Assembly (NCBI GenBank): GCA_913055635.1
Contig: CAJXLK010000002.1
Span: forward strand, 1 to 64,000
From: an uncultured Bacteroidota bacterium
GTDB taxonomy: Bacteria > Bacteroidota > Bacteroidia > Bacteroidales > UBA12077
Reading direction: 5' to 3'
Length of the DNA: 64,000 nucleotides
Shown here: in pieces, positions 1,597-61,630 of the stretch
How the letters are laid out: each line of letters opens with the position of its first letter
Position numbering within the stretch: the first letter of the stretch is position 1
Translations under genes and position numbers: made by a program
The notes under the pieces: generated by a model
Seen by the model: only the letters and a program-made list of their open reading frames with translations
Told to the model about the DNA's origin: nothing
The model's database searches: none

Positions 1597-2201
1597 AACA
1601 TCGACCCGTCTGAACCTGCCCCCTAAACACGGCTGCTGCGCTTATTTATTCTTTGATGGTCAACATATGGTTATCAACATGAATATGAATGCGCATTGTT
1701 TTTTTTTAACGGCTCCAGCAAATACTTAACGGGATCAATCAACATGCTTTATGCATGCCTTTGATTTGTAAGTTCGTGCATGTGTATTTCCTTAACAAAT
1801 TAAACCATTAAGCTATCCAGAATCGTTGATATGTGGGAAAAATCTGGTACATTTTTTGTTATTTGAGAATTTCATTTATATTTTAGTTTTCAATACTTTG
1901 ACGCACTATAAAACTGTGGCGTAATAAATTTATATACAGATATTTATAGTATATTGAGTTGTTATAACCATTGAAATCATTCATATTATATCAATTATTC
2001 GACCTACCCATAAAATGGAACCCATGTTATTGCAATCTGTTTTGAGTGCCAGGGAACCCCCGTTTTAATTGCTTCCTTCGAAAATGAATTGGCATTGATC
2101 AGGCAAAGTTTTATGTGAAAACGTGATGCGTTCCATAGAACCATCAACATGGAATCTTCATTGTATTTTCTTCTTTTCATGCCTGGTTTTAATTTTTCAG
2201 T
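1597..2201. other. Long intergenic region with one dispersed hairpin repeat copy
   Basis: About 600 bp without a convincing gene. Listed ORFs here have atypical composition and no recognisable motif. The only structured element I can support is the minus-strand hairpin repeat at 1742-1783, listed separately. Confidence 0.5.
1742..1783 (-). repeat. Dispersed hairpin repeat, copy D
   Basis: Read on the minus strand, arms ACATGC and GCATGT enclose a loop containing GAACTTACA and TGCATAAAGC. Those two blocks are shared exactly with the copy at 39803-39850. The arms differ from those of the other copies but still pair. Confidence 0.55.
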
Positions 2202-5354: not shown

Positions 5355-6000
5355 CTCTTTTTCTCCTCGTTATGATTCTATTCAACAATTGCATCAGACC
5401 CTAAGGGGCTATCATTTTTGGTTAAACTCTAAATGTTGGTTGATTTTGATGAAGCTGTTCAATCAAATCAACCATATTGAAAGAGGAACATTATTTAATT
5501 GTTGGTTGATTCGTTGGTCAAGAGGGATCATTGTCTAAATTGTCCATTGCTCATAGTTCATTGCTCATCGTTCATTGCCCATAGTTCATCGTTCATTGAT
5601 CTTTGTCCATTGCTCATAGTTCATTGCTATTTGCTCATTGTTCATCGTTCATTGCCCATCATTCATTGTTCATAGTTCATCGTTCATTGATCTTTGTTCA
5701 TTGCTCATTATTCATCTTCTCATTGCCCATTGGCCTGCAAACTTAATGATCAACCATCGTAGAATATGGTCAAATATATTTAACCCTTTATTTTTGGACT
5801 GTTTATGAAAATAATGGTCACTGAATTACCCGGGTAAATTCATGGGCAGTTGGGATTTTTTCGGTGATGAGCACGATTTTTCAGTAATGAGCACAATACC
5901 ATTTCTGCACTAATGGAATCAGCCCCAAAAGCCCCCTTTCAATTTTTTGGCGAATAATACCCTGATGAAGGTTTTAGCAATTTTTTCCCCCGGTGAAAAA
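5355..6000. other. Repeat-rich intergenic region
   Basis: Between the divergent Spy-like promoter side and the 3' end of the T9SS cargo gene I see no gene. The centre is the minisatellite at 5540-5735. The rest is AT-rich with no clear motif. Confidence 0.5.
5540..5735. repeat. Degenerate TTCATTGCTCAT minisatellite with a 91-bp higher-order unit
   Basis: The stretch is built from roughly 10-nt words of the type TTCATTGCTC, TTCATCG and CCCATAG. A longer block beginning AGTTCATCGTTCATTGATCT occurs at 5583 and again at 5674, so there is a higher-order period of 91 bp. It has no spacer structure and is not a CRISPR array. Confidence 0.75.
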
Positions 6001-17660: not shown

Positions 17661-17806
17661 GACCCCGCTTAGCGGGGTGCTCCAACATCACCCCGCTTAG
17701 CGGGGTCAAAAACTAGCCCCTTAAATTACCCCGCTTAGCGGGGTCAAAAAAACTTACCCCGCAGGGTCATCTATTACCGCTCTTTCTTACTCCGCTTAGC
17801 GGGGTG
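17661..17806. repeat. Cluster 1 of the CCCCGCTTAGCGGGG palindrome
   Basis: Copies are at 17661-17678, 17690-17706 and 17728-17744, with a truncated one near 17756 and a variant at 17790-17806. All show the CTTAG centre on the plus strand. The cluster lies directly after the stop of the preceding plus-strand gene, between convergent genes. Confidence 0.85.
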
Positions 17807-24875: not shown

Positions 24876-24945
24876 CACTGACTTACCCACACAATCAGAA
24901 CCTTCGCAACAAGGCTATGAATAAAGTTGTGGTTTACATGGCGAT
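24876..24945 (+). repeat. Dispersed hairpin repeat, copy C
   Basis: It shares CAACAAGGC, ATGAATAAAG and ACATGGC in the same order as the tandem pair at 39.8-40.0 kb. The 5' arm CACAA pairs with TTGTG, whereas the other copies use CCCCCAT/ATGGGGG or ACCCTCAT/ATGAGGGT. Confidence 0.5.
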
Positions 24946-25039
24946 AGGGCCGATAAGAATAGATGATTGTTCTATATAATTTGGATTAAAAACCCTAAAT
25001 GAGTCTTTAACCAAATAAAATAAATTTGCTATTTTTATT

Positions 25040-25205
25040 ACCCCCGCTTAGCGGGGTCGTTGTAATTTTACCCCCGCTTAGCGGGGGTGTGGTAAACGGG
25101 ATCGTTAAATTCTACCCCGCTTAGCGGGGGTGATCATAACCCCGCTAAGCGGGGGGGGGGGGTAAAAAAAACATAACCCCGCTAAGCGGGGGTCTAAGCG
25201 GGGGT
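25040..25205. repeat. Cluster 2 of the CCCCGCTTAGCGGGG palindrome
   Basis: Three copies with a CTTAG centre (from 25040, 25070 and 25113) are followed by copies with a CTAAG centre (from 25139 and 25176) and a partial one to 25205. The orientation flips in mid-cluster. One copy has a run of twelve G at 25151-25162. The cluster ends 23 bp before the thioesterase start, so it forms most of that gene's leader or promoter region. Confidence 0.85.
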
Positions 25206-38698: not shown

Positions 38699-39718
38699 TT
38701 AATAATGAAAAAAGGCGTTGCTTTTAAGCTGAGAGGCGTCGAAATCGGCGTAATGTTCACCAATATAATCAAGGGTGTCGAAAAGTTCGTCGGGGTCGAG
38801 GGAAGTGACCAGCTTTGTACGCAAGGGTTTGAAGTGGGGCAGGCCTTTGAAATAGTTCGACAGGTGACGACGCATTTCATATATTCCCCGGGGCATTCCT
38901 TTCCATTCAATGGATTTTTCAAGGTGTTTTTTGGCCACCGCTACTTTTTCGCGGACATCGGGTTCATCAACCACACGGCCGTAATCCAGGTACTGGCGGA
39001 TGGATCGAAAGAGCCAGGGCTTGCCCACGGTGGCCCTGCCAATCATGATGCCATCGACCCGGTAATGGTCAAATGCCCGGGCGGCACCCTGGGGTGAGGT
39101 GATATCGCCGTTGCCGATCACGGGAATTTCTATTTCGGGATCATGTTTCACTTCAGCGATTTTTTCCCAATCGGCCTGGCCTTTATACATTTGTGCCCGG
39201 GTTCGCCCGTGTATGGCAATAGCCTGTATACCGGCATCCTGTAGCCGCCGTGCAATCTCAATAATGTGGACCGAATGCTCGTCCCATCCCAGGCGGGTCT
39301 TGGCTGTTACCGGAAGGCTGGTTGCCGCCACCACTGCCCGGGTCATCTGTTCCATGTAATCAGGATCCTGGAGCATCCCGGCTCCCGCCCCACGCGTGGC
39401 TATTTTTTTTGCCGGACAACCGTAATTCAGATCAATGAAATCAGGTCGCTTCGATTCTGCCAGCTTCGCTGCCTCCTGCATGGCTTCAATCCGGTTGCCA
39501 TACAATTGTACCCCAAATGGCCGCTCGAATTCAGCAATCTGCATCTTCTTTATGCTTTTGTCGCAATCCCTGATCAGCCCCTCTGAAGCAATGAACTCCG
39601 AGATCATCACATCGCTGCCGTATTCCTTGCATACGTGGCGGAACGACTGATCGGTGATGTCTTCCATCGGTGCCAGAAAAAGCGGCCTTGGCGGTATTTC
39701 TATGGACCCTATCTTCAT
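38699..39718 (-). CDS. dus: tRNA-dihydrouridine synthase (DusB-like)
   Basis: This 339-residue FMN-dependent TIM-barrel enzyme reduces uridines in tRNA. It begins with PPRPLFLAPMEDITDQSFR, and the catalytic Cys lies in DLNYGCPAKKIATRGAGAGML. Further family motifs are VTAKTRLGWDEHS, AIAIHGRTRAQMYKGQADW, VIGNGDITSP and GIMIGRATVGKPWLF. The C-terminal helical domain follows. The DusB-like subgroup is likely because of the GxDxIDLNxGCP region and its length, but Dus subfamily is hard to assign by eye. The ATG is well placed. Downstream (38443-38698) I see only a short non-homologous open frame, not a gene. Confidence 0.92.
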   Translation of the reverse strand: MKIGSIEIPPRPLFLAPMEDITDQSFRHVCKEYGSDVMISEFIASEGLIRDCDKSIKKMQIAEFERPFGVQLYGNRIEAMQEAAKLAESKRPDFIDLNYGCPAKKIATRGAGAGMLQDPDYMEQMTRAVVAATSLPVTAKTRLGWDEHSVHIIEIARRLQDAGIQAIAIHGRTRAQMYKGQADWEKIAEVKHDPEIEIPVIGNGDITSPQGAARAFDHYRVDGIMIGRATVGKPWLFRSIRQYLDYGRVVDEPDVREKVAVAKKHLEKSIEWKGMPRGIYEMRRHLSNYFKGLPHFKPLRTKLVTSLDPDELFDTLDYIGEHYADFDASQLKSNAFFHY

Positions 39719-39800
39719 TTGACGATCTCTCCAAGGGTTAAATGTGAAACGTTGGCTTACGGTTCATTGATGATCATGAACATCCTTTTTTTAAGCATGA

Positions 39801-39934
39801 CCCCCCCATACAGGAACTTACACAACAAGGCAATGCATAAAGCATGGGGGTTCCATGGCAGAGGGAAACAAATTATGCCATGTTGGAAGCAAAATTGTGT
39901 TGAAATACAGAACGTTAATTAAACTTTATACGAA
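39801..39934 (+). repeat. Dispersed hairpin repeat, copy A (first tandem unit)
   Basis: The stem CCCCCAT (39803-39809) and ATGGGGG (39844-39850) encloses a 34-nt loop containing GAACTTACA, CAACAAGGC and ATGCATAAAGC. A tail with GTTCCATGGCAGAGG and GTTAATTAAACTTTATACGA follows. The tail includes the inverted pair CATGGCA/TGCCATG. Confidence 0.7.
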
Positions 39935-40068
39935 ACCCTCATGCACCGACTAGCACAAAAGGTAATGAATAAAACATGAGGGTTCCATGGCAGAGGTTAC
40001 CGAGACCAACGAATTACATGCTATTATTATACTGAAATACAAACTGTTAATTAAACTTAATACGAATG
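39935..40068 (+). repeat. Dispersed hairpin repeat, copy B (second tandem unit)
   Basis: The stem ACCCTCAT (39935-39942) and ATGAGGGT (39976-39983) encloses a 33-nt loop with GGTAATGAATAAAAC. The tail GGTTCCATGGCAGAGG and GTTAATTAAACTTAATACGA match copy A. The arms differ from copy A at positions that change together on both sides. Confidence 0.7.
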
Positions 40069-40260
40069 AATAGAAATATTAAAGGTCTTTTCAATACAAC
40101 CTTTTCTTTTTATGGCCCAATACAACTTATCCTCCTAATCCTGCTGATTCCAACCCGGGCCAATTCCTCACGCTGAGTTCGGACTTATATTGGCCGGTTT
40201 TTAAAATTTATCTATTATTTTTATCCTGCAAAAATAGGAAGTTTTTAAATTTATTTGATC

Positions 40261-41175
40261 ATGCCAGGCCATTTCTTTCGCCATCCTTTTACCCAGCTTT
40301 TAACCGTCATTTTTATCATGATCACCTCCTATTTTGTCCTTTTTTCATTGGGTTTGCTTTTGGCGGTTCCCCTCTTTGGCATGTCGTTCGGTGAACTGTC
40401 TGCCCTTTTGTCGCAAGGCACCGGCTTTGATGACATCAACGTGTTGAAGTATTTCCAGAGTATTCAAACCCTGGGTCTTTTTGTCGTGCCTCCATTTATT
40501 GCAGTGCGGTATTTTTATCACCGGCCGGTGATGGCCCTGGGGTTGAGGGGTACTTTTACGAAGGGTTCTTTGGTGGCTGCCGTTTTGATGGTTTGGGTGG
40601 CTGTTCCTTTTATTAATTTTCTGACCCAGCTAAATCAGGAGGTTCATCTGCCGTGGTTTTTTGAATACCTGGAAGAATGGCTCATGGAAAAGGAAGGCAC
40701 AACAAAGCAAATGACACGGCAATTGCTCCAGGCCGATACGGTTGGGGTGCTGGCGATAAATATTTTTGTGATCGGGTTGTTGCCAGCGGTAGGTGAAGAG
40801 CTTCTGTTCAGAGGTCTCATCCAGCGGATATTCACACAATGGACCCGCAACGCCCACTGGGGCATTGTGATCGCTGCTTTTTTATTCAGCGCAATGCACA
40901 TCCAGTTTTATGGCCTGATTCCCCGTATGTTCCTGGGCGTGATGTTCGGATACCTTCTTTTGTGGAGCGGTTCCATCTGGTTGCCTGTGATCGGGCATTT
41001 CGTCAACAATGCCAGTGCGGTGGTCTATTATTACTTTTTTGATGAAGGGGCCCGGTTTTCTTCGACCCATTTTGATACCATGGGCGTTCATTTTCCCCTG
41101 GTATTGCTCAGTTCCCTGATGATTCTGTTTTGTGGTTATGTGATCTATATCAGTGAAAGGCGGCAAACCTCATGA
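40261..41175 (+). CDS. CPBP family intramembrane metalloprotease
   Basis: This membrane protein of about 304 residues has around eight hydrophobic helices. The catalytic glutamates are in GEELLFRGLIQRIF, the first metal His is in FLFSAMHIQFYG, and a second conserved region reads PVIGHFVNNASAV. This is the CAAX-protease/bacteriocin-processing (CPBP, Abi) family, related to Rce1. The bacterial substrate is unknown. The ORF track starts at a TTG (40255); the ATG at 40261 is preferred. Its 3' end overlaps the converging gene at 41170 by 6 bp. Confidence 0.92.
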   Translation: MPGHFFRHPFTQLLTVIFIMITSYFVLFSLGLLLAVPLFGMSFGELSALLSQGTGFDDINVLKYFQSIQTLGLFVVPPFIAVRYFYHRPVMALGLRGTFTKGSLVAAVLMVWVAVPFINFLTQLNQEVHLPWFFEYLEEWLMEKEGTTKQMTRQLLQADTVGVLAINIFVIGLLPAVGEELLFRGLIQRIFTQWTRNAHWGIVIAAFLFSAMHIQFYGLIPRMFLGVMFGYLLLWSGSIWLPVIGHFVNNASAVVYYYFFDEGARFSSTHFDTMGVHFPLVLLSSLMILFCGYVIYISERRQTS

Positions 41176-43189: not shown

Positions 43190-43290
43190 CCCCGCTTAGC
43201 GGGGTCGGAAAATTATCCCCGCTTAAAATTATCCCCGCTTAGCGGGGTTATGAAAGACCAGACCCCGCTAAGCGGGGTCTAAAAAAGCGG
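43190..43290. repeat. Cluster 3 of the CCCCGCTTAGCGGGG palindrome
   Basis: A one-base-deleted copy (43190-43205), a truncated half-copy, a full CTTAG copy (about 43233-43248) and a CTAAG copy (43261-43279) follow directly after the terminator. As in cluster 2 the orientation flips from CTTAG to CTAAG. Confidence 0.85.
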
Positions 43291-61236: not shown

Positions 61237-61260
61237 AGGTGGTTTATTTTAGGAATTGAA

Positions 61261-61410
61261 TTTTTTATCTAAGAGCTGCCTTTATATTAGGATCTTTTTT
61301 TTATCTAAGACCTGCCTTTATATTAATATCTTGTTTTTAACTAAGACCTGACTTTATATTAAGATCTTGTTTTTAACTAAGACCTGCCTTTGAATTAAGA
61401 ATTGAGCCGG
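61261..61410. repeat. 36-bp tandem repeat
   Basis: Starts of CTAAGACCTG units at 61269, 61305, 61341 and 61377 are exactly 36 bp apart. The consensus is CTAAGACCTGCCTTTATATT followed by AAGATCTTGTTTTTAA. Decayed traces continue to about 61490. It lies just upstream of the first DUF4382 gene. Confidence 0.85.
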
Positions 61411-61531: not shown

Positions 61532-61630
61532 ACCCCGCTAAGCGGGGATAGGATTAGGTTTGTTGGACCATACCCCGCTAAGCGGGGGTAGGATTAAAGC
61601 GGAGATAGAACAGACCCCGCTAAGCGGGGT
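61532..61630. repeat. Cluster 4 of the CCCCGCTTAGCGGGG palindrome
   Basis: Three copies at 61532-61548, 61572-61589 and 61613-61630, all with a CTAAG centre on the plus strand, i.e. CTTAG on the minus strand, the strand of the upstream gene. The last copy abuts the terminator of the second DUF4382 gene. Confidence 0.85.

Follow-up and report, generated by a model that had tools for sequence, protein, structure and literature searches.

Between a dus gene and a CPBP protease gene, two adjacent repeats of similar length each contain a potential hairpin. The question this locus raises is whether their stems, in which changes on one arm seemed to be matched on the other, belong to a structured RNA or to a hairpin recognised by a protein, the two readings offered by the original prediction. 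We examined the repeats in the window, meaning the whole 64,000-nucleotide stretch of DNA analysed here, and in related genomes.

The tandem pair in the window

The position described for the repeats was correct, between dus (PF01207) and an Rce1/CPBP-like gene (PF02517), and two adjacent units are present there, with the copies 132 bp apart. Compared with each other within the window, the units match with E = 7e-13. Their common loop blocks also stand where they had been placed: GGnAATGnATAAA at 39829 and 39961, GTTCCATGGCAGAGG at 39850 and 39982, and GTTAATTAAACTT at 39914 and 40046. The informative strand of the repeat is the minus strand. The features are as follows (T1, T2 and T4 are left-body types; RE is the right-end hairpin).

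39930 to 40065, minus strand: element copy 1, type T1, 136 bp, with its left end at 40065 and its right-end hairpin at 39930-39988
39932 to 39988, minus strand: right-end hairpin of copy 1, ATGGAACCCTCATG-loop-CATGAGGGTTTC, from the alignment and pair counts and a relative's DNA fold
39983 to 39988, minus strand: candidate guide ATGGAA of copy 1, within the right-end hairpin
40066 to 40070, minus strand: putative target TTCAT (ATGAA on the plus strand), directly outside the left end of copy 1
39857 to 39931, minus strand: T2-type left body, belonging to element copy 2 (nhmmer E = 9e-21 for T2 over 39857-39933)
39797 to 39856, minus strand: right-end hairpin of copy 2, stem damaged, ending GGGGGGGTCAT (nhmmer RE E = 6.8e-15; weak DNA fold)
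24898 to 25013, minus strand: decayed element copy, T4-type body and partial hairpin (nhmmer RE E = 2.2e-6, T4 E = 7e-4)
1740 to 1790, plus strand: decayed right-end hairpin (nhmmer RE E = 6e-6)
38699 to 39718, minus strand: dus gene, context (PF01207, E = 3.4e-86)
40255 to 41175, plus strand: Rce1/CPBP-like protease gene, context (PF02517, E = 2.1e-19)

The pair spans 39797-40065 on the minus strand, with copy 2 (39931-39797) directly behind copy 1. Each unit consists of a left body, rich in A/T and about 75-80 bp long, followed by a terminal hairpin that reads, on the minus strand, ATGGAACCCNCATG, a loop of about 30 nt (TTTATTCATtgCCTTGTTGTGtaagTtcctg) and CATGNGGGTTTCAT. Copy 1 matches the T1 profile with E = 6.7e-24 and the right-end hairpin with E = 2.3e-14 (nhmmer), and its unit recurs at more than 10 other loci of the host genome with 94-99% identity. 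The stem proposed for copy 1, GAACCCTCATG/CATGAGGGTTTC, is present on the minus strand, but that of copy 2 is damaged. Pairing also extends further than had been claimed, to 14 bp including the terminal ATGGAA/TTTCAT. At the junction of the two copies 4 nt are missing, giving GGGTTTC-GTATAAAG in place of GGGTTTCATTCGTATAAAG; undamaged tandem junctions at other loci have TTTCAT followed directly by TCGTATAAAG. The window pair is an ordinary, partly decayed tandem example of an element family. The window also contains unrelated short tandem arrays, at 61243-61400 and 5539-5715 (36-bp and 7-bp units; Tandem Repeats Finder).

Copies, boundaries and hosts

The host genome (G000; 4.08 Mb, 77 contigs) holds at least 40 further strongly matching loci, with E-values down to 4e-34. 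ATGGAACCNNCATG with at most one mismatch was matched 237 times, as against 8 times for the reversed pattern, and we estimate about 230 hairpin copies. A covariance model of the hairpin detected at least 147 copies in this genome and at least 22-91 in four congeners, with patchy matches in the sister genus. Across Bacteroidales it matched at least 25 of 198 genomes, some with at least 10-19 copies; genomes G062, G067 and G173 contain at least 18, 19 and 11. Named relatives that bear the hairpin are Bacteroidales metagenome-assembled genomes with the sample names CSSed and B1Sed10, which we take to be soda-lake sediment. Many contigs end inside the element, as near-identical copies that break assembly would lead one to expect. 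Phage and plasmid record collections gave no element match, an exact 25-base element pattern was found 0 times in viral contigs, and our literature searches on relevant terms found no description of the element. This is a real, widespread element family and, as far as those searches show, a previously undescribed one.

Five left-body types, T1-T5, occur in the host genome, all with the common right-end hairpin. Unit lengths are fixed, 134-137 bp for T1-T4 and 90-92 bp for T5, and left bodies and hairpin subtypes are shuffled among units. Within 856 kb of this genome, 110 of 111 hairpins were intergenic, against a background of 75% coding TTCAT sites, and none of the 111 belonged to a copy with an ORF. 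Two hairpins spaced 850 bp apart at locus L144 were considered as a larger autonomous copy and rejected: a separate left end belongs to each hairpin, and the intervening gene resembles a TetR-type regulator.

The boundaries are sharp. Elements with no other element before them are preceded by TTCAT (T53 T52 C49 A53 T52 of 55, per position), itself preceded by T or A, and a further 32 elements sit directly behind the TTTCAT of another element. The 3' arm of the hairpin also closes with TTTCAT, and any position within the TTCAT common to both ends could be the exact cut. The right end keeps TTTCAT even with deviant left targets (TTGAT, TTTAC, TTTAT), so the common TTCAT does not represent a duplicated target site. 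Eight almost identical copies in G067 have eight different flanks ending in TTTCAT upstream and unrelated sequence downstream.

Some copies depart from the usual form. In G106, four copies of one 81-bp sequence (L302-L305), every one at the end of a contig, form a near-perfect palindrome flanked on either side by inverted left ends, and so resemble a REPIN made from this element. At L096/L176 (G000:C1:42643), a T1-type hairpin without a left body lies behind unrelated repeat-rich sequence, with the exact join CC/ATGGAACC. At L035 (G000:C23:1-230), a short-form left end, TTCAT/AAGG...CTT/ATGTAA, is joined to a CCGCTAAGCGG repeat array and not to its own hairpin, so these repeat families may be nested within one another.

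We regard it as likely that the window repeats are tandem copies of a non-autonomous, guide-targeted mobile element, one that would move as a single strand. A simple insertion-sequence end, the outcome that had been named as speaking against the original prediction, fits in part: the hairpin behaves like a transposon right end, but none of the copies examined carries a transposase gene.

Pairing, the candidate guide and start codons

Pairing was assessed on 58 distinct hairpins collected mainly by their terminal and loop motifs, with inner-stem pairing not required. Two-sided changes occupied 30 cells, compared with 11.7 in shuffles (0 of 500 as high) and 2-6 in slid controls; the copies share ancestry, and these counts are not independent events. 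Pair 10 is seen as G-C, T-A, C-G and A-T. The suggestion that pairing is under selection is borne out by the excess over both controls. The original observation is real and not due to chance, and the repeat is not a lone regulatory RNA.

Which strand folds bears directly on the RNA reading. An intact relative folds as DNA at -10.5 kcal/mol (z -5.0, with 0 of 200 shuffles as good), while the damaged hairpin of copy 2 gives z -0.6; folded as RNA, the full 276 nt does not stand out on either strand (z -0.6 and -1.2). Paired cells amount to 88.2% on the minus strand and 84.2% on the plus. Pair 4 is a conserved G.T on the window's minus strand, corresponding to an A.C mismatch on the plus. This conserved wobble indicates that the minus strand folds, so that the strand which folds lies antisense to the following genes.

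ATGGAA opens the hairpin and is complementary, with one G.T, to the closing TTTCAT and equally to the left TTCAT target; a rarer form is GTGnAA. The last base of the target and the first base of the guide vary together (T/A 107, C/G 4, C/A 3, T/G 1; Fisher p = 2.5e-5, a value that overstates independence since the copies share ancestry). L240 and L246, which belong to different families, show joint changes in all three parts: the target is TTCAC, the guide GTGGAA and the right end TTTCAC. L005, L010 and L048 also combine a GTG guide with a target ending in AC. The co-changed cases come from different genomes and have different left ends. From these sequence patterns, the element appears to recognise its target by base-pairing with its own guide, and one guide is apparently shared by target and right end.

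A further pairing is seen at the left end. In the short form, the first 3 bases of the element pair with the 3 bases before the guide (TTCAT/ACG...CGT/ATGGAA), as ACG/CGT, AAG/CTT, GTG/CAC, CAT/ATG or ATG/CAT, and across the order also as CTG/CAG. The two sides covary: over 46 short elements, 77% of the positions in this 3-bp stretch are paired, compared with 43% when shuffled (maximum 62%). Long forms show a small excess, 22% compared with 14%, and the forms of about 135 bp mostly do without the pairing.

TTTCAT is the reverse complement of ATGAAA, and many insertions lie exactly at a start codon: 21 of 43 external insertions in the host genome, compared with 238 of 856 intergenic TTCAT sites (odds ratio 2.5, p = 0.005; ORFs of at least 50 codons). 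The genes include metG, metF and pheT in the host genome and ispG and an epimerase in G067. Such copies supply the whole leader from the left end of the element. A+T content at -20 to -4 is 84-94% for all types but T4 and 72% for the few T4 copies, compared with 68% for genes generally. Bacteroidia initiate translation without Shine-Dalgarno pairing, through upstream adenines and low structure (PMC9976891), and this may be why start-codon insertions survive.

The same start-codon excess would be expected of a cis-acting RNA leader, in which a sense GUUCCAU pairs either with an upstream AUGAAAC or with the downstream start AUGAAA as a two-state translation switch; tandem copies would then resemble tandem riboswitches. 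A switch is also favoured by covariation, in the short form, of the pairing that would mask the start codon. However, only about half of the copies adjoin start codons, the genes downstream are functionally unrelated, and on the sense strand the conserved G.T wobbles of the antisense strand turn into A.C mismatches. No known RNA family had been recognised in the original prediction, and an Rfam search of the window returned two tRNAs only. Near-identical copies at scores of unrelated loci, with clean boundaries, would require mobility in any case. We consider a structured cis-RNA improbable; a hairpin recognised by a protein, the other reading first offered, is the better fit, as the end of a mobile element.

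Candidate mechanism, enzymes and known systems

A mobile element of this kind would move as single-stranded DNA, with an HUH-type enzyme and a circular intermediate. Its guide ATGGAA (rarely GTGnAA) would pair with the TTCAT or TTCAC target outside the left end, and also with the same sequence, TTTCAT, at the close of the right-end hairpin. If the strand were cut behind each of these sites and the ends joined, the element would come to lie 3' of a new TTCAT, with no duplication of the flank. Same-direction tandem arrays would follow from the TTTCAT end of each copy being a fresh target, and the many tolerated sites exactly at start codons from TTTCAT being the reverse complement of the frequent ATGAAA start. 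There, the A/T-rich left end would become the new leader, presumably a neutral one. Element orientation relative to GC skew, in 20-kb stretches, showed no bias of the kind that lagging-strand insertion might leave.

The mobilising enzyme was sought among known families. IS200-type Y1 genes of the family were tried as the autonomous partner and rejected, the hairpin being absent beside them. Across 63 Y1/RAYT loci with about 1.5 kb of flank, the only hairpin match had E = 0.91. Among the draft genomes searched, in which absence is not proof, G062 and G173 have neither Y1 nor RAYT and G067 has no free-standing Y1, its Y1 domain lying only inside a methyltransferase-like ORF. Y1/HUH transposase-like domains lie within methyltransferase-like (Eco57I-type) ORFs at L279 (G067:C51) and L081 (G011:C104), possibly as an in-frame insertion or a fused domain. 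A Y2 transposase (PF04986) was present in only 1 of 12 host genomes.

The elements could be REP-like and dependent on the single RAYT of the host genome, in the way proposed for TnpAREP with REPs and REPINs. This RAYT is split between contigs C51 and C64, carries the subclass 2.6 motif YIHQNP (TnpAREP subclass 2.6-like) and has homologues in all g1 genomes. Subclass 2.6 genes are reportedly flanked by atypical structures without GT[AG]G (PMC6006769). Against such a dependence, the host RAYT is flanked by a different REP with the core CCCCGCTAAGCGGGG (L046 on C51; L175 on C64), none of these hairpins is adjacent to the RAYTs of G001-G004, and a profile search at E<=0.01 found no RAYT in six element carriers (G062, G067, G173, G140, G167 and G046). 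We judge movement by this RAYT unlikely. RAYTs of the congeners carry their own, different repeats. The CCCCGCTAAGCGGGG-core repeats are a separate family that is clustered in the window (17665-17792, 25044-25179, 43192-43265 and 61535-61617), and the decayed element copy at 24898-25013 adjoins one such array.

Miniature integron-like cassettes, to which a tyrosine recombinase adds units in one orientation through an attC-like hairpin, would account for the same-direction arrays, the hairpin at the 3' end of each unit and the inner AAC/GTT triplets. The ends, however, are ATGGAAC/GTTTCAT and not RYYYAAC/GTTRRRY, the 12 genomes contain no integron integrase (TIGR02249) over the cut-off, and insertions are dispersed over the genome instead of gathered at one attI. 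This origin is extremely improbable. For the guide-targeted mobile element, the most likely enzyme would be a divergent HUH nuclease. A broader proposal, in which an order-wide class of miniature elements uses one guide hexamer for both the genomic target and its own right end, is drawn by that hexamer to ATGAAA start codons and is moved by an enzyme other than known Y1 or Y2 HUH proteins, RAYTs or integron integrases, is possible, and we advance it tentatively.

The elements are abundant, lie at the start codons of essential genes and break assemblies; given this, an influence on the leaders of genes in Bacteroidales is probable. Single-strand transposition in which the target is chosen by base-pairing is known from a few insertion sequences. 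The occurrence of ATG guides with CAT targets and GTG guides with CAC targets suggests natural retargeting at many loci and in several families, one guide being used for the two ends. The system makes it testable which enzyme moves the elements and whether one guide can indeed serve both ends.

Comparison with known systems places the element near two of them. With the IS200/IS605 family (IS608, ISDra2 and non-autonomous derivatives) it shares insertion 3' of a fixed short left-flank sequence without target duplication, a folded single-strand end and, apparently, a target read by pairing with a guide in the element (PMC5934647). IS608 selects its target by such guide-to-target pairing, with separate guides at each end (PMC5934647). 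In contrast, the present element has no attached tnpA, and in some hosts none was detected. Both of its ends are apparently served by one hexamer in place of two tetranucleotide guides, GL and GR, and its target and right-end sequence are identical. IS200/IS605 members have subterminal hairpins with their own guides at both ends, whereas this element has a single right-end hairpin, of 59 nt with a conserved loop of about 30 nt, and the left pairing of its short form uses the same ATGGAA.

Classical MITEs are likewise short, non-coding and present in many copies, but the element lacks terminal inverted repeats flanked by duplications, and its left and right ends differ. Integron cassettes (attC) also form arrays of hairpin-ended units; the element misses their core-site consensus, lacks an integrase over the cut-off and is inserted at dispersed sites. 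REPs and REPINs with their RAYTs, including subclass 2.6 of Bacteroidetes, are similarly high-copy, intergenic, hairpin-forming and clustered, and the inverted pair in G106 resembles a REPIN. Unlike REPs, the element has no GT[AG]G foot, its foot being CC/ATGGAA or T/ATGGAA; it does not lie beside a RAYT and is present in genomes without a detected one; and its unit of 90-137 bp has a fixed left body and forms same-direction tandem arrays. The element is best regarded as a variant of IS200/IS605- and REP-like single-strand mobile DNA, and not as a member of either.
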